Part shown: in pieces, positions 22,531 to 33,089 of the stretch
Layout: every line of letters starts with the position of its first letter
Position numbering within the stretch: the stretch's first letter is position 1
Made by a program: the position numbers and the translations under genes
The notes under the pieces: generated by a model
Databases searched by the model: none
What the model was told of the DNA's origin: nothing
What the model saw: the letters and a program-made list of their open reading frames with translations, nothing else
NCBI GenBank assembly: GCA_015062605.1
Contig: SUUI01000015.1
Coordinates: 1 to 43,893, forward strand
DNA length: 43,893 bases
Direction of reading: 5' to 3'
Origin: Eggerthellaceae bacterium
Lineage (GTDB): Bacteria; Actinomycetota; Coriobacteriia; Coriobacteriales; Eggerthellaceae

Positions 22531-24948
22531 ATGTCGCAGCAAGAAAAACCAAACGTTGCGCCTGAACCCGAAGATACCGGGCCAGCATCGCCATGCTACA
22601 TGCAAAACCGCGAGCTATCATGGCTCGATTTTAATGAACGCGTCCTCGATCAAGGTGCGGATCCGACGGTCCCTCTGCTTGAGCGGCTGAATTTCATCTC
22701 AATCTTCTGGAGCAACCTGCAAGAGTTCTTCATGGTGCGTGTCGGCAGCCTCACGGACCTCTCTCTCTTGAAAAAACCTGTGATAGACGTACGTACGGGC
22801 ATGACACCGCCCGAGCAGATTGCGGCAATCCATACACGCTGCCATGCCCTCTATCCCCTTCAGGAATCGGCATTCCAAAAGCTGCGCTCCGAGCTCGCCT
22901 CGGAAGGAATCAATCACGTGTATCCCGATGAGTTAACGGAGGAGCAGCGAGCTTTCGTTATCGACTACACGCGTAAAGCCATATCCCCGTTGCTTTCTCC
23001 GCAAATCGTCAACGCAATGCACCCGTTCCCGCATTTGGAGAACGGAGCGCTTTACATCATCGTCCAACTTAAGGATAAGAACGCTGAGACAGAATCCGCC
23101 ATCAAGACAGATGGCGCAGCGGATCTAGATGCGTCCACCAAAATAGGCAAAAAGAAAAAGGGCGCTCGCGCTAAGGACGTAACGCTCGGCATCATTCCGC
23201 TTCCGCATCTGGCGAAGCGCATCATCCCGCTTCCAGGCAACGACTTCTCTTTTCTGCTCCTCGAGCATGCACTCGAATTGATCGCGCACGACATCTTCAG
23301 CATGTACCGCGTCATAGGCACCAACATCATCTGCGTCACCAGAAATGCCGACCTCGATGCCGACGAGGGAGTTGATGAGAGCGGCGAGAGCTATCGCGAA
23401 CACATGAAGAGGATTTTGAAGAAGCGCGGACGCCTTGCGCCCGTGCGCCTGGAAAGCTTTAAGCCCCTTTCGGGCGGAACCTTGAAATTCCTCGCGAAGC
23501 GGCTTGGGCTCAAGCCGTACCAAACCTACATTACGAGCGTGCCTCTGGATTTGAGTTATACGCATCAACTCCCTGACCTCATTCCCGAAAAGCTCAAAAA
23601 GGATCTTTCCTATGCGCCGTTTGCGCCTCAATGGCCTTGCGATGTAGAGAAGAACCGCCCCATCATCGAACAGGTCATGGAACATGATATCTTGCTCGAA
23701 TATCCCTATCAGAGCATCGATCCTTTCGTGCAGCTTTTGCGCGAAGCAAGCCGAGACCCTAAAGTCGTCTCCATAAAGATCACGCTCTATCGCCTTGCCA
23801 GCCGGTCGCATATCGCCGAAGCGCTCATTGACGCAGCAGAAGCCGGTAAGGAGGTTACGGCGCTCTTCGAACTGAGAGCGCGTTTCGACGAAAGCAACAA
23901 CATCATGTGGTCACAGCGTTTCGAGGAAGCTGGAGCGAAAGTCATCTATGGTTTTCGCGATTACAAGGTCCACTGCAAAGTCTGCTGCATCACGCTGCAA
24001 ACCGATCAAGGCATTAGACACATTACCCAACTCGGTACGGGCAATTACAATGAGAAGACCGCGCGCCTCTATACAGATTTGGCATTCATCACATCTGATC
24101 CCGCATACGCCGATGATGCACTCGAACTGTTCCGCAACATGGGACTCGAAAGCCTTTCGGATGCTTACCCGATTCTTTGCGTAGCACCATTGCAGATCAA
24201 GCAGACCATCATGCAACGCATCGACGAGCAAATGGAACTGGCCAGCATAGGCAAGCCGAGCGGCATCTTCTTCAAAACAAACGCCATCACCGATTACGAT
24301 GTCATCGAAAAGATCTCGCAAGCATCGCAGGCGGGTGTCCCCATAACCATCATGGCACGTGGAATCAGCTGTATCGTTCCAGGCATTTCAGGTTTTACAG
24401 AAAACGTGCGCGTGGTTTCCATCGTGGGCAGATTGCTTGAACACAGCAGAATATACGGATTCGGCCCACAAGAGAATATGGCAATTTACCTATCAAGCGC
24501 AGATTTGATGACGCGGAACCTGGACAAGCGCATCGAGGTCGCATGGCCCGTCACCAACGATGAGCTTCGCAAGCGCATCATCGACTATATCTCGGTTTCG
24601 CTTTCAGACACTGCTAAGCTCCGCGAGCTTAAACCTGATGGAAGCTACACAGCTCTTGGCGCGCAAGCTGCTTGCGGCGAGGCAAAGAAAGGTGCTCTGT
24701 TCGATTCGCAGGAATATCTCATCGAACGCGCTTTGCAGCAAAGCCAACAAGCAGCGCAGAATACAATCGACAAGGAAGCCCCCAAGAAAAAACTCTTGCT
24801 GCTTAGAAAACCATCTTTGGAAAAGATGAAGCAAGCTTTGCCGAAGATACCATCGAAGTCAACCTCCAAAACGACGAAACCCGCTTCTTCGAAAGAGAAG
24901 GCGAAGAGGCTTCTCGGCAGCATCAGGAAGCGCTTCTCAAAGAAATAA
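22531..24948 (+). CDS. ppk1: Polyphosphate kinase 1
   Basis: Makes inorganic polyphosphate from ATP reversibly. The N-terminal domain opens with NRELSWLDFNERVLDQ. The two active-site histidines are in DYKVHCKVCC (His481, the phosphorylated residue) and LLEHSRIYGFG (His638), with LGTGNYNEKTARLYTD and MARGISCIVPGI nearby. The length of 805 residues is about 100 above the usual size. The extra material is a polar insert at about 181-216 containing KIGKKKKGARAK, and a basic tail from about 740 rich in Lys, Ser and Pro. The tail might bind polyphosphate or nucleic acid (inference). The start at 22531 follows GAGGAAAA. Monocistronic; a hairpin follows. Confidence 0.96.
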   Translation: MSQQEKPNVAPEPEDTGPASPCYMQNRELSWLDFNERVLDQGADPTVPLLERLNFISIFWSNLQEFFMVRVGSLTDLSLLKKPVIDVRTGMTPPEQIAAIHTRCHALYPLQESAFQKLRSELASEGINHVYPDELTEEQRAFVIDYTRKAISPLLSPQIVNAMHPFPHLENGALYIIVQLKDKNAETESAIKTDGAADLDASTKIGKKKKGARAKDVTLGIIPLPHLAKRIIPLPGNDFSFLLLEHALELIAHDIFSMYRVIGTNIICVTRNADLDADEGVDESGESYREHMKRILKKRGRLAPVRLESFKPLSGGTLKFLAKRLGLKPYQTYITSVPLDLSYTHQLPDLIPEKLKKDLSYAPFAPQWPCDVEKNRPIIEQVMEHDILLEYPYQSIDPFVQLLREASRDPKVVSIKITLYRLASRSHIAEALIDAAEAGKEVTALFELRARFDESNNIMWSQRFEEAGAKVIYGFRDYKVHCKVCCITLQTDQGIRHITQLGTGNYNEKTARLYTDLAFITSDPAYADDALELFRNMGLESLSDAYPILCVAPLQIKQTIMQRIDEQMELASIGKPSGIFFKTNAITDYDVIEKISQASQAGVPITIMARGISCIVPGISGFTENVRVVSIVGRLLEHSRIYGFGPQENMAIYLSSADLMTRNLDKRIEVAWPVTNDELRKRIIDYISVSLSDTAKLRELKPDGSYTALGAQAACGEAKKGALFDSQEYLIERALQQSQQAAQNTIDKEAPKKKLLLLRKPSLEKMKQALPKIPSKSTSKTTKPASSKEKAKRLLGSIRKRFSKK

Positions 24949-25054: not shown

Positions 25055-28000
25055 TTACTCCTCATCATCGTCGTCGTCAGCCTGCTCATCATCTTTGCTG
25101 GTGAAGCTGAAGCCAAGCGAACCGACAGACCCAAGCAGGGCATCAAGCTCCTCGAGGTGACGCTGATACGAGCGCGGAGGAAGCGCCTCGCCAAGCATAT
25201 CCTCACCTTCCAGATTGAATGTCGGAGGCTCGTCGCCGCCAATCAGAATCGTATCGTCTGGCGAGAACACCATATCGAGCAGTTGGCTGATGTCATCGCT
25301 CGTTGCATTCAGGTCATCTTCGATGACATGCGAAAGGTTGTGCGCTGCCAAACCTTCGCGCAGCTCTGCAATTGCCTTCACGCCGATGCCCTCGATGCGC
25401 AGCAAGTCCTCCTCGGTATGCCCGAGCAGATCGCTGACAGTCTCGATGCCAGCCTCGCTGAACTTGTTAGCCCAGCGCTGGGAGACATGCAGGTCATCAT
25501 AGATGTACAGACGCGCATCCTCATCGGAGAGGTTCTTACGCGAACCGAACATGCCGCCACCATAGTAGCTGCCATAACCCGAATTCATGTTCAGATATCC
25601 ATCGGTGTCGAGCGACCAATCCTGAGGCTGCGGGAGCAGCTCCTCGATCTCGCGCAGTGCCGCAGGAGCGTAATCCGGCAATGTATCGTTTGAGCTGCGT
25701 GAAATCGGGTGGCCCTTGTACGTAAGACGTACATCGTGATAGCGCTTGAGACCCGTACCTGCAGGAATCGGCTTGCCGATGATGACGTTCTCCTTCAAAC
25801 CGGCAAGACGATCAACCTTGCCTTCGATAGCTGCATCGGTGAGGACCTTCGTGGTCTCCTGGAACGATGCGGCAGACAGGAAGGAGTCGGTTGCCAGCGA
25901 TGCCTTCGTAATACCGAGCAGAAGCGGCTGACCGACAGGGGGCACCTTGCCCTCGGCGATAAGCTTGTTCGCAACCTTCTCGAATTCGAAACGATTGACC
26001 TGACGTCCAGGCAGTAAATCGGAATCGCCCGCATCGAGCACGACGACCTTGCGCAGCATCTGACGTGCAATAACCTCGATGTGCTTGTCGTTGATGTCAA
26101 CGCCCTGGGAAACATATACGCCCTGAACCTGACCGACGATGTAGCGAAGCGTTGCGTTCGCATCGGTCAGACGCAGAAGGTCATGCGGGTTGATGGAGCC
26201 CTTAGTCAACTGCTGACCGATCTTGACTTCGCAGCCGTCCACGACACCAGGCATCATCTGAGCACGTGCAGACACGACGTATTCGCGATAGTTACCCTCT
26301 TGATCGTGGATGGTCAGGGTCATGGTCTGCTTATCGCCCGTAATCTGCAGCGTACCTGCGATTTCTGCAAGCACTGCTTGGCCCTTCGGCTTACGGGCTT
26401 CAAACAGCTCTTGGACACGAGGAAGACCCTGGGTAATGTCCTCACCGGCAACGCCGCCGGTGTGGAACGTACGCATCGTCAGCTGCGTGCCCGGCTCGCC
26501 AATGGACTGAGCCGCGATGATGCCGACTGCCGTGCCGATGTTCACCGGTCGGCTCGTTGCAAGATCCCAACCGTAGCACTTCTGGCAAATGCCTTGGTCT
26601 GCATGGCACGTCATGACCGTGCGGATGACGACTTCCTCAACACCCTTGGCAAGCAGCTCTTTAAGCTGGGCCACGGAGCTGATGTGCTCATCAGCAGGAA
26701 TGACAACCTCGCCATTGGCGTCGACGACATCCTCGAGCAGACAACGACCAACCAGGTTGTCGTCAATCTCGTCCTTCTCGTTGAGGATCGGATACGCAAC
26801 GCCATCGGTGGTACCGCAATCGAGCTCGCGGATGATGACATCTTGCGCGACATCGACCAGACGACGGGTCAGATAACCAGAGTCGGCGGTACGCAATGCG
26901 GTGTCAGCGAGACCCTTACGTGCGCCATGCGTGGAAATAAAGTATTCCAATACGCTCAAGCCTTCACGGAAGTTCGCCTTGATGGGCACGTCGATGTTTT
27001 CGCCCTTCGGGTCCTGCATAACGCCACGCATGCCAGCGAGCTGACGAATCTGCTTGATGTTACCGCGGGCACCGGAGAAGGCCATCATGTAAATCGGATT
27101 GAACTTGTCGAAGTTGTTGGCCATTGCCTCGCCAACTTCCTCGTTAGCCTCCTGCCAGATGCTGACGACCTGACGATGGCGCTCTTCGCGGTTCATCAAA
27201 CCGATTTCGTAGTCCTCATCGATTGCGGCAACCTTGGCATCGGCGGCAGCAAGAATCTCAGCTTTGTTCGGCGGCACCGTTGCGTCGTAAACGGAAACGG
27301 TAACGCCGGCGAGCGTTGCATAGTGGAAACCAGCATCCTTCAGACCATCGAGAATCGGTGGGACTTCAGAAGGCAGATAGCGATTGCATACGTCCTCGAC
27401 GAGACGGCTGATTTCCTTCTTGTTCATCTCGTAGTTCAAATACGGATACTCACGAGGAAGAACGCTGTTGAAGATAATGCGGCCAACAGAGGTCTCGATA
27501 CGATCGCCAGCCTTGTGATCCTCGAAGACATTGTATGAGGATGCGATCTTGCCATCGCGACTCAGACGTACCTTGATCCTCGCCTGCAAGTCCAAATCAG
27601 CACGAGCTTCATATGCGTTGAGCGCATCAGCGAAATCGATGAATGCACGACCCTCGCCCGGGAAGCCTTCACGCACTGCGGTCAGGTAATACAGGCCGAT
27701 GATCATGTCTTGTGTCGGAACGGTCAGAGGACGACCATGGGCAGGCGACTTGATGTTGTTGGTGGACAGCATCAGCACGCGAGCTTCTGCCTGCGCTTCA
27801 GCGCCGAGCGGTACGTGGACAGCCATCTGATCGCCATCGAAGTCGGCATTGAATGCGGTGCAGACGAGCGGATGCAGCTTGATGGCCTTGCCCTCAACCA
27901 ACACCGGCTCAAAGGCCTGGATGCCCAGACGGTGCAGGGTGGGTGCGCGGTTCAAGAGCACCGGATGCTCGGTGATGACTTCTTCGAGGACATCCCATAC

Positions 28001-29458
28001 GTAGGAGGCGCCACGATCGACTGCGCGCTTCGCGGCTTTGATATTCGCTACGTACTCGAGCTCGACCAGACGCTTCATAACGAATGGCTTGAACAGCTCC
28101 AAAGCCATCGCGCTCGGAAGACCGCATTGATGCAGCTTGAGCTGAGGACCAACGACGATAACCGAACGACCGGAGTAGTCGACGCGCTTGCCGAGCAGGT
28201 TCTGACGGAAACGGCCCTGCTTACCCTTGAGCATGTCGGACAGGCTCTTTAAGGGACGATTGCCGGGTCCAGTGACCGGACGGCCACGGCGGCCATTATC
28301 GAACAGACTATCCACAGCTTCCTGCAGCATACGCTTCTCGTTGTTCACGATGATCTCGGGTGCACCGAGATCGAGCAGACGCTTCAGGCGGTTGTTACGG
28401 TTGATGACACGACGATACAGATCGTTCAAGTCGCTCGTAGCGAATCGGCCGCCATCAAGCTGAACCATCGGACGCAAATCCGGCGGAATGACAGGGATGA
28501 CATCAAGGATCATGTCGGTCGGCTTGTTGGAGGACTTCAGGAACGCGTCGACGACCTTAAGGCGCTTTATAGCCTTCGCGCGACGTTGGCCTTTGCCCGT
28601 ATCGATGATCTCGCGCAGCTCCTCGGCGGTAGCTTCGAGGTCGATGTCGGCAAGCAGATCGCGGACAGCTTCGGCACCCATGCCACCCGTGAAGTAATCC
28701 TTGTAGTTCATGCGCATTTCGCGATACAAGGTTTCATCGGGCACGAGCTGCTTCGGCTCGATCTTCAGAAGCGCATCAAGCGCGTCAGCACGCAGCACCT
28801 TGCGCTCGGCATACTCCTCGTAGATGTCGGCGATTTCTGCTTCGACCTCTTCGGGAGTCATGCGCTCGTCATCTTCCAAGTCGTCGACGAACTCGTCATC
28901 CTCTGGCACGTAGTCAGTGGAAAGACGACGCGTCGCCGCGATCAGGCGATCGCGCTCGGCATCGAGCTCTTCGAGATCGGCTGCCAACTCATCGCGCAGC
29001 TCGTCCACGTCGGCATCGCGTGCCTCCGTGTCAACGCTCGTGATAATGGAGCTCGCGAAGTACAGAACCTTCTCAAGCTCTTTGGGCGGGATGTCAAGCA
29101 GGTAGCCCAAACGGCTTGGACTGCCCTTGAAATACCAGATATGGCTCACAGGAGCGGCAAGCTCGATGTGGCCCATGCGATCGCGACGGACCTTGCTGCG
29201 CGTCACTTCGACGCCGCAACGCTCGCAGACGATGCCCTTGAAACGGACACGCTTATACTTACCGCAACCGCATTCCCAGTCCTTGGTAGGACCGAAGATC
29301 TTCTCGCAGAACAAGCCGTCCTTCTCAGGCTTGAGCGTACGGTAATTGATCGTCTCGGGTTTCTTGACCTCGCCGCGCGACCAGCTGCGCACGTCTTCGG
29401 CACTCGCAAGGGAGATGCGGATATCGTCGAAATTATTGACATCGAATTCCGTAGTCAT
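25055..29458 (-). CDS. rpoC: RNA polymerase beta-prime subunit with a C-terminal alpha-CTD-like domain
   Basis: Catalytic subunit of RNA polymerase. Normal features are the N-terminal [20 protein letters not shown], a Cys4 zinc site (CGCGKYK...CERCG), the active-site [15 protein letters not shown] and the bridge/trigger region with [20 protein letters not shown]. The conserved body ends near [16 protein letters not shown] (about 1220-1240). The protein is 1467 residues, so about 220 are extra. Residues about 1320-1382 resemble the alpha subunit C-terminal domain: [44 protein letters not shown]. Arg1328, Asn1331, Gly1359, Lys1361 and Glu1365 match E. coli alpha Arg265, Asn268, Gly296, Lys298 and Glu302. 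A tail ending in acidic residues follows. The ATG overlaps the rpoB stop (TAATG), showing translational coupling. Confidence 0.97.
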
Positions 29459-32400
29459 TATCGCTCCTCTCCCTCACCGATAAGTTCACTCACGTCGGTG
29501 GTAACACTCTCGTTCATTAATTCTCCCAGTTCAGCGGCGATGTTATCGAGTACGCTCGCCGCATCGTCCTCTTCGGTCTTCTGGGCATCCTCAGCCATGG
29601 CTTGATACATCGCACGATCGGCTGCTTCCTGGTCGTCCATGTCCTCGTCCTCGGTCGTCACTTCGGCATGGCTGTCGAGCTGAACGTTCAAGCACAGAGA
29701 CTTCATTTCCTTGATGAGGACCTTGAAGCTCTCGGGAATCTCTGCAGCCGGGATGTTTTCGCCCTTGACGATCGCCTCATAGGACTTCACGCGGCCTGCC
29801 GTATCGTCGGACTTCACCGTGAGGATCTCTTGCAGCACATTGCTTGCGCCGTACGCATACAACGCCCAGACTTCCATTTCGCCGAAGCGCTGGCCGCCGA
29901 ATTGCGCCTTGCCGCCCAAAGGCTGCTGGGTGATCAGGCTGTACGGGCCAGTCGAACGTGCATGGATCTTATCGTCGACCATGTGGCCGAGCTTTAGGAT
30001 GTAGGTTTGACCAACGGTGATCGGCTCACGGAACTTCTCGCCCGTGCGGCCATCGAATAGCCAGGTCTTGCCCTCACGCGTCAGTTGCGGGACGAACTCG
30101 TCACGCGCCTTATCGCCATACTTAGCGTGATTGATGTTGATCAGATTGCGGTTCGCAGCCTCGATAGCATCGGAAATCTCGTCTTCATGCGCACCATCGA
30201 ATACCGGTGTGGAGACGAAGATCGGTCCTTCGACCGGCTCGGTGCTGTTCGGATCGTCCGACCAGCCCCACTTCGCCGCCCAACCAAGATGGTTCTCAAG
30301 CAGCTGACCGACGTTCATACGGGAAGGAACGCCAAGGGGATTCAGGATGACATCGATAGGCGTGCCATCTGCCAGATACGGCATATCCTCAACAGGCAGG
30401 ACGCGAGAGATAACGCCCTTGTTGCCATGGCGGCCAGACAGCTTATCGCCCTGCTGAACCTTACGCTTCTGGGCTACGTAGATGCGGATGAGCTCGTTGA
30501 CGCCAGGCGTCAGCTCATCGCCGTTCTCGCGGCTGAAACGATAAACGCCGATGACACGGCCACCAGCACCATGGGGTACCTTCAGGCTTGTGTCGCGGAC
30601 CTCGCGTGCCTTCTCACCGAAGATGGCGCGCAGCAGGCGCTCCTCAGCCGTCAGCTCGGTTTCGCCCTTGGGGGTGACCTTGCCGACCAGCACGTCGCCC
30701 GGGAACACTTCGGCGCCGATACGGATAATGCCATCGGCATCCAGATCGCTGATCATATCGTCGGAGATGTTCGGGATCTCACGTGTGATCTCTTCTGGGC
30801 CGAGCTTGGTATCACGCGCATCGATCTCGTATTCGGAGATATGGATGGAGGTCAGAAGGTCTTCTGCAACCACGCGCTCGGACACGATGATAGCATCCTC
30901 GTAGTTGTAACCTTCCCACGGCATGTACGCGATCATGAGGTTGTGACCAAGAGCCAACTCGCCCAAATCGCAGCTCGGACCATCAGCGAGCACGTCGCCC
31001 GCCTGAACCTCGTCGCCCTTGCGAACGATGGGACGATGATTGATGCAGCCGCTCTGGTTGGAACGCTGGAACTTTGGAACGAGATACTCGTCGTACTCGC
31101 CATCGTTATTCAGGATGATGATGGTCTGGCCATCGACGTAGTCGACCACACCGGGGTTCTGCGCTACGAGGATCTCGCCGGAGTCGACCGCGATACGGTG
31201 CTCGATGCCGGTACCGACCAACGGAGCCTCCGGACGCAGAAGCGGCACGGCCTGGCGCTGCATGTTCGAACCCATGAGCGCGCGGTTTGCGTCGTCGTGC
31301 TCCAAGAACGGGATGAGGGACGTTGCAACCGATACCATCTGGCGCGGAGAAACGTCCATGTAGTTGACCAGCTCGGGAGAAACCTCTTCCGGCTCACCGA
31401 ACTGACCGGATGCATCCTTCACGCGGCAGAGAACCTTCGTGGCCTTCACGAATTTGCCGTTCTCGTCGAACGTGCCGAACTGACGGGTCTTAGGATCGAA
31501 CGAATCGTTCGCCTGTGCGATGACGTACTTCTCCTCCTCGTCAGCCGTCAGGTAATCGACCTCGTCGGTTACCTTGCCATCGATGACGCGACGATACGGC
31601 GTCTCGATGAAGCCGTAGGGATTGACCTGCGCATACGTTGCCAACGAACCGATTAGGCCGATGTTGGGACCTTCAGGGGTCTCGATCGGGCACATGCGGC
31701 CATAGTGGCTGGTATGGACGTCGCGAACCTCGAAGCCTGCACGCTCACGCGAAAGGCCACCAGGGCCAAGCGCGCTCAGGCGGCGCTTATGCGTGATGCC
31801 GGCAGCCGGATTGGTCTGATCCATGAACTGAGACAGCTGGGAAGAACCGAAGAACTCCTTGATCGCTGCCACGATAGGACGAATGTTGACGAGGCTCTGC
31901 GGCGTGATGTCGTCGGGCTCTTGCATGCTCATGCGCTCGCGAACGACGCGCTCCATGCGCGAAAGGCCGATGCGGAACTGGTTTTGAATCAGCTCGCCCA
32001 CCGTACGGATGCGGCGGTTGCCGAAGTGGTCGATGTCGTCCGTAGTGACGCCCTCTTCGCCGGCATGCAGCGCGATGATGTAGCGCATGGTCTCGGTGAT
32101 GTCCTTCTCGGTCAGCGTGGAGAAGTCCTCGTCCGGGTCAAAACCGAGCTTCTTGTTGATCTTATAGCGGCCCACCTTGGCCAAATCGTAGCGCTGCGGA
32201 TTGAAGAACAAGCCCTCGAGCAGCGTGCGGGCGCTATCGATTGTCGGAGGCTCGCCTGGACGGAAGCGCTTGTACAGCTCGATGAGCGATTCCTCGCGCG
32301 TGGTGGCGGGATCGCGATCGAGCGTGCGCAGCACCATCTCGTCGTTGCCGAGCAGCTTGACGATGTCCTCATGCGTTTCGGCAAGGCCGAGCGCGCGAAC

Positions 32401-32994
32401 CAGAAGCGTCGCGGGCTGCTTGCGCTTGCGGTCGATACGCACCGAGAGGATGTCGCGCTTGTCGGTCTCGAACTCGAGCCAAGCACCACGGCTCGGGATG
32501 ACCTTCGCGTTGTAGATGATCTTGTCGGAGGTCTTATCACGCTCTGACGAGAAATACACGCCAGGGCTGCGAACGAGCTGAGAAACCACAACGCGCTCGG
32601 TGCCATTGATGATGAAGGTGCCACGCGGGGTCATGAGCGGGAAATCACCCATGAACACGTCTTGCTCTTTCATCTCGCCGGTCTCACGGTTGACGAAGCG
32701 GATCTCAACGAAAAGCGGCGCCTGATAGGAGACGTCCTTCTCCTTGCATTCGTCCACAGAGTACTTCGGCTCGCCGAATTCGTGCTTGCCGAATTCAACG
32801 TACATGTCCTTCGTGCTGTTCTCGATAGGACAGATGTCGTTGAATGCTTGGGTAATGCCTTCCGTCTGGAACCACTTGAAGCTCTTGGTCTGAATCTCGA
32901 TCAGATTGGGAGCATCCATGACGTCAGGAATCTTTGCAAAGCTTCTGCGATTCCTATAAAGGCTGGTGGGAGTGGATTTTTTACCTTTGGCCAC
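29458..32994 (-). CDS. rpoB: RNA polymerase beta subunit
   Basis: Second catalytic subunit of RNA polymerase and the target of rifampicin. The 1178-residue protein has the usual layout: the N-terminal lobe with [16 protein letters not shown] and [28 protein letters not shown], the rifampicin region [16 protein letters not shown]...[13 protein letters not shown], and the C-terminal [10 protein letters not shown] and [20 protein letters not shown] motifs. The GTG at 32994 is the start, because AAGGAGGG precedes it; an open frame running 5' to 33075 crosses the -10 element of a near-consensus promoter. rpoC follows with a 1-bp overlap. Upstream is uvrB, not rplJ/rplL as in most bacteria. The last 60 residues are acidic and poorly conserved. 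Confidence 0.98.
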
Positions 32995-33060
32995 GAGGCT
33001 TTCCCTCCTTTTGTAAAACGGTTGTTTGAACTCGCTTTTATCAAAAAGTCGCAATTTTCC

Positions 33061-33089
33061 AAGATACTCGCGCACAGGCGCGAAGTCAA
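33061..33089 (-). promoter_or_regulatory. Strong sigma-70 promoter of rpoBC
   Basis: On the minus strand TTGACT (33089-33084) and TATCTT (33066-33061) are separated by exactly 17 bp. Transcription would start near 33054 and give a leader of about 60 nt before the GTG at 32994. Confidence 0.78.

Follow-up and report, generated by a model that had tools for sequence, protein, structure and literature searches.

An alpha-CTD-like domain at the C-terminus of the RNA polymerase beta-prime subunit in Coriobacteriia

We analysed a stretch of 43,893 nucleotides (the window) from contig SUUI01000015.1 of the Eggerthellaceae bacterium assembly GCA_015062605.1, which carries rpoB and rpoC, the genes for the beta and beta-prime subunits of RNA polymerase (RNAP). 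The beta-prime subunit encoded here, RpoC, extends well beyond its core. The match to the core model TIGR02386 stops at residue 1241 of 1467 and is followed by a 79-residue linker, a domain resembling the C-terminal domain (CTD) of the alpha subunit and a 90-residue acidic tail (Table 1). A first-pass annotation of the sequence had placed such a domain in the span 25055-25492, preceded by a linker of about 75 residues with a Gly/Tyr-rich part and followed by a tail ending in Asp/Glu. Linker (residues 1242-1320) and tail end are as described there; the span holds the tail and most of the domain, but the match to the alpha-CTD profile PF03118 (RNA_pol_A_CTD) starts two codons earlier, at 25498. 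The NCBIfam model NF011498 covers RpoC residues 2-1464 (model positions 1-1459) with 2884.6 bits, the cut-off being 1437.

Identity of the C-terminal domain

That the domain is homologous to the alpha CTD we regard as practically certain. On the C-terminal 213 amino acids (aa) of RpoC PF03118 matches residues 1321-1371 with 36.2 bits (E 5.1e-9), above its curated cut-off of 23.8, and on the whole protein it scores 32.5 bits. The generic helix-hairpin-helix profile HHH_5 (PF14520) stays at 15.6/19.9 bits on RpoC, under its cut-off of 27 and under PF03118. A phmmer search of the PDB listed 55 sequences, of which 53 are RNAP chains (best E 3e-5; 52 named alpha and one, 1i6v_A, named RNA polymerase only), and the two remaining sequences have E values of 0.63 and 0.68. 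When 18 diverse beta-prime copies were compared with six RpoA CTDs profile against profile, they aligned over 61 columns with 34% identity (probability 99, E 2.5e-18). PF03118 and HHH_5 each match 18 of these 18 copies at E ≤ 0.01, and PF03118 has the higher score in each of the five copies with scores available, one of them from family f50 (see below). A home-built RpoA CTD profile (30 RpoA of the class, E. coli and 8i23) matched 34 of 41 RpoC tails with 7.7 to 43.5 bits; among these 41 it gave no match in the seven tails which carry the zinc-type module described below.

The predicted fold leads to the same assignment. An AlphaFold2 model of the 225 C-terminal residues of RpoC, calculated from an alignment of 33 sequences, has a mean predicted local distance difference test score (pLDDT) of only 61.5; the domain itself (model residues 81-130) has block values of 83-88, and its core consists of five helices, as in the alpha CTD. 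RNAP entries make up 49 of the 50 listed rows with Foldseek and likewise 49 of 50 with VIA-align, these lists being dominated by the one domain with linker and tail barely probed. The best rows outside RNAP among the matches listed are a Dmc1 entry (Z 7.8, VIA) and a RAD51 complex at rank 47 (Foldseek). VIA superposes the model on E. coli alpha with Z 9.8 and 1.5 Å over 66 residues, and the aligned ranges put model residue 86 (Arg1328) on alpha residue 265 and model residue 119 (Lys1361) on 298.

PF03118 match and predicted alpha-CTD fold together bear out the domain proposed for the beta-prime C-terminus. An artefact or chance match is ruled out by profile, predicted fold and conservation. 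We also considered an assembly error or read-through joining rpoC to another gene and rejected it, the domain lying in a stop-ended frame in all of the 80 named loci introduced below. Because the protein is RpoC without the alpha N-terminal dimerisation domain and RpoA is encoded by a separate gene, the domain is of alpha-CTD type and the protein is not an alpha subunit.

Table 1. Features of the rpoC locus in the window (residue numbers refer to RpoC, alpha equivalents to E. coli)
Feature	Position	Strand	Basis
rpoC, RNAP beta-prime with extra C-terminal modules	25055..29458	-	1467 aa open frame, profile matches
rpoB, upstream partner gene of rpoC	29458..33075	-	without PF03118 match
Linker, residues 1242-1320, past end of TIGR02386 core match	25499..25735	-	includes Gly/Tyr-rich low-confidence stretch
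Alpha-CTD-like domain, residues 1321-1377	25328..25498	-	PF03118 match 1321-1371 (25346-25498); predicted fold
Arg1328, equivalent of Arg265	25475..25477	-	alignment
Asn1331, equivalent of Asn268	25466..25468	-	alignment
Gly1357, replaces Asn294	25388..25390	-	alignment
Gly1359, equivalent of Gly296	25382..25384	-	alignment
Lys1361, equivalent of Lys298, and Ala1362, replaces Ser299	25373..25378	-	alignment
Glu1365, equivalent of Glu302	25364..25366	-	alignment
Acidic C-terminal tail, residues 1378-1467	25058..25327	-	mostly low confidence in model
Short tail motif, residues 1389-1400, found in many beta-prime tails of the class	25259..25294	-	pattern search

At its 3′ end rpoC faces a convergent gene (22531-24948, forward strand, 805 aa) across 106 bases; judging from its sequence, we take the product to resemble polyphosphate kinase. 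Near the N-terminus of beta-prime, residues ~150-215 (about 28800-29010, reverse strand) form an acidic, charged stretch, presumably of the kind found as insertions in actinobacterial polymerases.

Contact residues and tail motif

The first-pass annotation had also named the equivalents of the alpha residues that touch DNA. Its numbering of R1328, N1331, G1359, K1361 and E1365 is correct, and the two changes that it noted, at Asn294 and Ser299, are found as G1357 and A1362. We followed these residues through 34 copies, chosen by their position in RpoC and drawn from 16 families of the class, with the seven zinc-module tails set aside. Arg265, Gly296 and Glu302 are kept in 34 of 34 beta-prime copies, and the Lys298 equivalent is Lys in 29, plus one Arg. 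Glu261, which we take to be a sigma-contacting residue of alpha, has no Glu at its equivalent position in any of the 34 copies; Gly stands there in 32, and His in the RpoC of the window. The linker and the tail diverge among relatives while the surface residues of the domain stay invariant in the sampled copies. All seven contact residues are present in every one of 31 RpoA sequences of the class, a count favoured by their choice, since these are the own copy plus the 30 matches with the highest scores. In the named loci Arg265 and Asn268 are kept in 80 of 80, which is circular because these loci were found with patterns holding either the Arg265/Asn268 stretch or the D-L-x-G stretch.

A structure of an E. 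coli closed complex shows Arg265 and Asn294 inserted into the minor groove, with Lys291/Lys298 touching phosphates (PMC7822876), and a review names R265, N294 and K298 as contact residues (PMC5101437). With Arg265 kept and Asn294 gone, the beta-prime copy therefore retains one of the two groove residues. The second hairpin of the beta-prime domain is a canonical GxGxKA.

The tail motif has the pattern D[VMLIT]xx[FYL]xxx[TVA]F[DESA]P, and in this loosened form it occurs in 38 of 41 RpoC tails (27 of 41 with a stricter first pattern, so that the count is descriptive); it can also be summed up as D-x-x-x-(L/F/Y)-x-x-x-x-F-(S/D/E)-P. It stands after the CTD in the window's order and before the CTD in other orders and is present in zinc-tail proteins as well. 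It may be a binding motif.

Distribution, variants and origin

In the own genome PF03118 has two matches at E ≤ 1, RpoA with 97.5 bits and RpoC with 38 bits, RpoA keeping an ordinary CTD beside the RpoC one. Counted anywhere in the genome, and with second matches not individually placed in RpoC, at least two PF03118 matches are present in 253 of 296 genomes of the class, one in 40 and none in 3. None of the 253 belongs to the families f8, f19 and f20 (36 genomes), and in all other families 253 of 260 genomes have a second match. With the RpoC C-terminus as query, matches were found in 143 of 149 genomes. A public genome scan confirmed 331 loci, of which the 80 best are the named loci. All 80 hold the domain in a frame (at least 1426 aa in 66 loci, 301-1346 aa in the other 14, mostly at contig ends), their titles include Olsenella, Adlercreutzia, Gordonibacter, Senegalimassilia and Atopobium, and L125 (an uncultured Eggerthellaceae) and L134 (Adlercreutzia agrestimuris) come nearest to the window, with 77% identity in the tail. 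We also searched 396 genomes of the phylum, where the matches listed reach E about 3e-16 and weaker fusions and many second matches lie beyond. Among the matches listed, 35 of 38 members of the class have the domain in frames 1460-1501 aa long and the three exceptions are from f8, and outside the class RpoC-length frames with the domain occur only in family f50. The alpha-CTD-like domain on beta-prime is a class-wide feature save for three families.

One named locus, L191, has a domain-bearing RpoC frame of just 561 aa, yet it lies inside a long contig; it may be a broken or misassembled rpoC. Second partial matches to the RpoC C-terminus were seen at G040:C24:6466-6666 and G022:C16:12826-13029, one in a 1315-aa frame and one with two stops; an additional rpoC, a remnant or contamination could account for them.

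In the three families mentioned the RpoC tails (L079-L085) end in two tandem Cys/His units (C..C..C..H) and are without an alpha-CTD-like domain. When two such tails were scanned over their full length, both exceeded the cut-off of zf-TRM13_CCCH and one that of DUF5763, and each of the two profiles matches 7 of 7 Cys/His units at E ≤ 0.01. The full-length or nearly full-length tandem module is present, on the contig with the RpoC match, in 33 of 149 genomes (f8 24, f19 8, f20 1), which amounts to 33 of the 33 genomes of these families having an RpoC match; the f8 genomes G077 and G121 have neither module nor RpoC match. In a tree of the RpoC core with the tails removed (44 rows, built by a quick method and rooted on f50) the zinc-tail proteins nest within CTD-bearing lineages; this topology requires two changes, and a single origin is not rejected (approximately unbiased test, p-AU 0.111). 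Since the zinc-tail proteins sit inside these lineages, the CTD was most simply ancestral in the class and then replaced by the zinc-type module.

The class to which f50 belongs was searched in 119 genomes. The domain is present in 17 of 18 f50 genomes, in 16 of them in frames of at least 1019 aa, and the 101 genomes of other families gave no match in a frame above 709 aa. In the f50 domain (L113-L115, L222-L230) Tyr replaces Arg265 and Ser replaces Asn268 in 12 of 12 copies, with the PF03118 match, Lys298, Ser299 and E302 kept, and the RpoA of two f50 genomes (L199, L200) keeps Arg265. The domain can therefore persist without the groove-inserting residues. A tree of the domain, built on 72 rows with no more than 60 columns and leaving 34 of its 69 inner branches open, splits 35 beta-prime copies from 37 RpoA CTDs with support 94/85, below the star threshold, and puts 32 Coriobacteriia beta-prime copies on one side with support 99/94; it is without power to say whether f50 represents an independent gain. 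The idea that the domain was copied recently from the rpoA of the same organism is unsupported, the beta-prime copies grouping apart from the RpoA CTDs in this tree.

Possible role and comparison with known systems

We consider it probable that the domain acts as a third alpha-CTD-type module, carried by beta-prime and contacting upstream DNA, regulators or both; a DNA-contacting role in initiation, taken on its own, is favoured by a somewhat smaller degree. The beta-prime C-terminus carries an alpha-CTD paralogue on a long linker, which would give the holoenzyme a third module of this type. On such a tether the domain could extend from the beta-prime side to promoter DNA lying upstream, and there it may grip the minor groove or the backbone via the Arg265/Gly296/Lys298-type surface and the GxGxKA hairpin. 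Its sequence preference would be weaker than that of alpha, because Asn294 and Ser299 are gone. The domain may double as a docking platform for regulators, perhaps with a contribution from the conserved acidic motifs of the tail. DNA contact is favoured because Arg265, Gly296 and Glu302 are invariant. The C-terminus of beta-prime lies near omega, and omega is encoded in the same genome. The first-pass annotation had gone on from the likeness to extra promoter- or activator-contacting modules fixed to beta-prime; the alpha-CTD-like identity stands, and the contacting role stays conditional, with Arg265 constant and with Asn294 and, in nearly all copies, Glu261 replaced by Gly.

Several results weigh against this reading. 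The Asn268 equivalent is kept in only 21 of the 34 beta-prime copies, the Asn294 equivalent is Asn in none and Gly in all 34, and the Ser299 equivalent is Ser in one and Ala in 33. Foldseek gave no match at E ≤ 0.001 (the best, E 1.5e-3, is weak), and with VIA a Z under 8, or about 13 for helical bundles, may mean a mere common arrangement. Outside the window's order one relative reaches 34.3 bits with HHH_5 (cut-off 27) and 40.0 with PF03118, which points to drift, and L088, L093, L099, L100 and L101 score only 7.7-17.9 bits with the RpoA CTD profile. Three families of the class are without the domain, which is therefore not indispensable.

The main rival is a module for protein docking only, since Asn294 is lost and the f50 version is without Arg265. 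The domain would then bind sigma, NusA/NusG-like factors or class-specific activators and make no contact with DNA, which would fit the loss of Ser299 as well, the f50 domain that has neither Arg265 nor Asn268 yet keeps the profile match and K298/E302, and the recurrent short motif of the tail. However, Arg265, Gly296 and Glu302 are invariant in the 34 sampled Coriobacteriia copies, which would be odd if DNA contact were lost, and what replaces the domain in three families is a zinc-finger-type module, which would be in keeping with binding to nucleic acid. We regard docking alone as rather unlikely. Still less probable is a sequence-neutral helix-hairpin-helix DNA anchor which would hold the duplex along the polymerase in elongation or pausing and not at promoters. 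The canonical second hairpin is closer to the generic motif than that of alpha and HHH_5 matches all 18 diverse copies, but PF03118 outscores it wherever both scores are available. A functionless remnant, that is a neutral C-terminal extension, agrees with the sequence taken alone and with the absence of the domain in three families, but is very improbable given the second PF03118 match in 253 of the 260 genomes outside those families and the invariant surface residues between a divergent linker and tail.

Returning to the third alpha-CTD-type module, we tentatively extend it to a picture that we hold to be possible, though with the odds somewhat against it. The Coriobacteriia polymerase might be a three-CTD enzyme whose beta-prime C-terminus serves as an exchangeable DNA-binding socket, occupied mostly by an ancient alpha-CTD paralogue, in a subgroup by a tandem zinc module swapped in (perhaps once), and in another actinobacterial family by a separate Arg265-less version. 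The upstream DNA or regulators recognised by the enzyme would change with the socket, so that promoter rules established in E. coli or mycobacteria could not be transferred to these bacteria.

The subunit plan of bacterial RNAP is usually taken as fixed, with two alpha CTDs, one per alpha. Coriobacteriia (e.g., Olsenella, Adlercreutzia, Gordonibacter and Senegalimassilia) seem to have a third CTD on beta-prime, with a nucleic-acid-type module swapped in by a subgroup, and their polymerase may hold promoters through three domains of this kind, not two. If promoter contact holds true, these bacteria call for rules of their own on upstream elements, activation geometry and heterologous expression. 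A search of the open-access literature, mostly without subscription papers and largely without full texts, found no paper describing an alpha CTD on beta-prime, and in it we did not meet a class-wide survey, the residue pattern, the zinc-module replacement or the f50 variant.

The closest known counterpart is the RpoA CTD itself. The beta-prime domain shares with it the profile, the predicted fold, Arg265, Gly296, Lys298, Glu302 and, in the window, Asn268, and, like it, follows a linker in the terminal part of a core RNAP subunit. It differs in its carrier, in the changes of Asn294 to Gly, Ser299 to Ala and Glu261 to His (Gly in most relatives), and in the acidic tail that follows it in the window's order. 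NF011498 / PRK14906 (beta′, 1459 positions) matches the protein over its full length, but offers a name and a model only, with a description that says beta′ and nothing on function or distribution; PRK14906 is, we believe, titled beta′/alpha domain fusion protein in CDD. The BEAN and HABAS domains of beta and beta-prime resemble the present case as lineage-specific accretions on the large RNAP subunits, but they are insertional, and by their legends the conservation panels mask N- and C-terminal residues beyond the shared core; 'Coriobacter' is absent from the main text (PMC11515920). In E. coli, dCas9 fused to omega or to the alpha N-terminal domain brings polymerase to promoters (PMC8096225). 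The likeness lies in how a DNA-binding module attached to one subunit would draw the enzyme to promoters, but the fusions are engineered and the tether is another subunit. The domain type and, as an NCBI family, the long RpoC are known already; what is unusual is beta-prime as the carrier.
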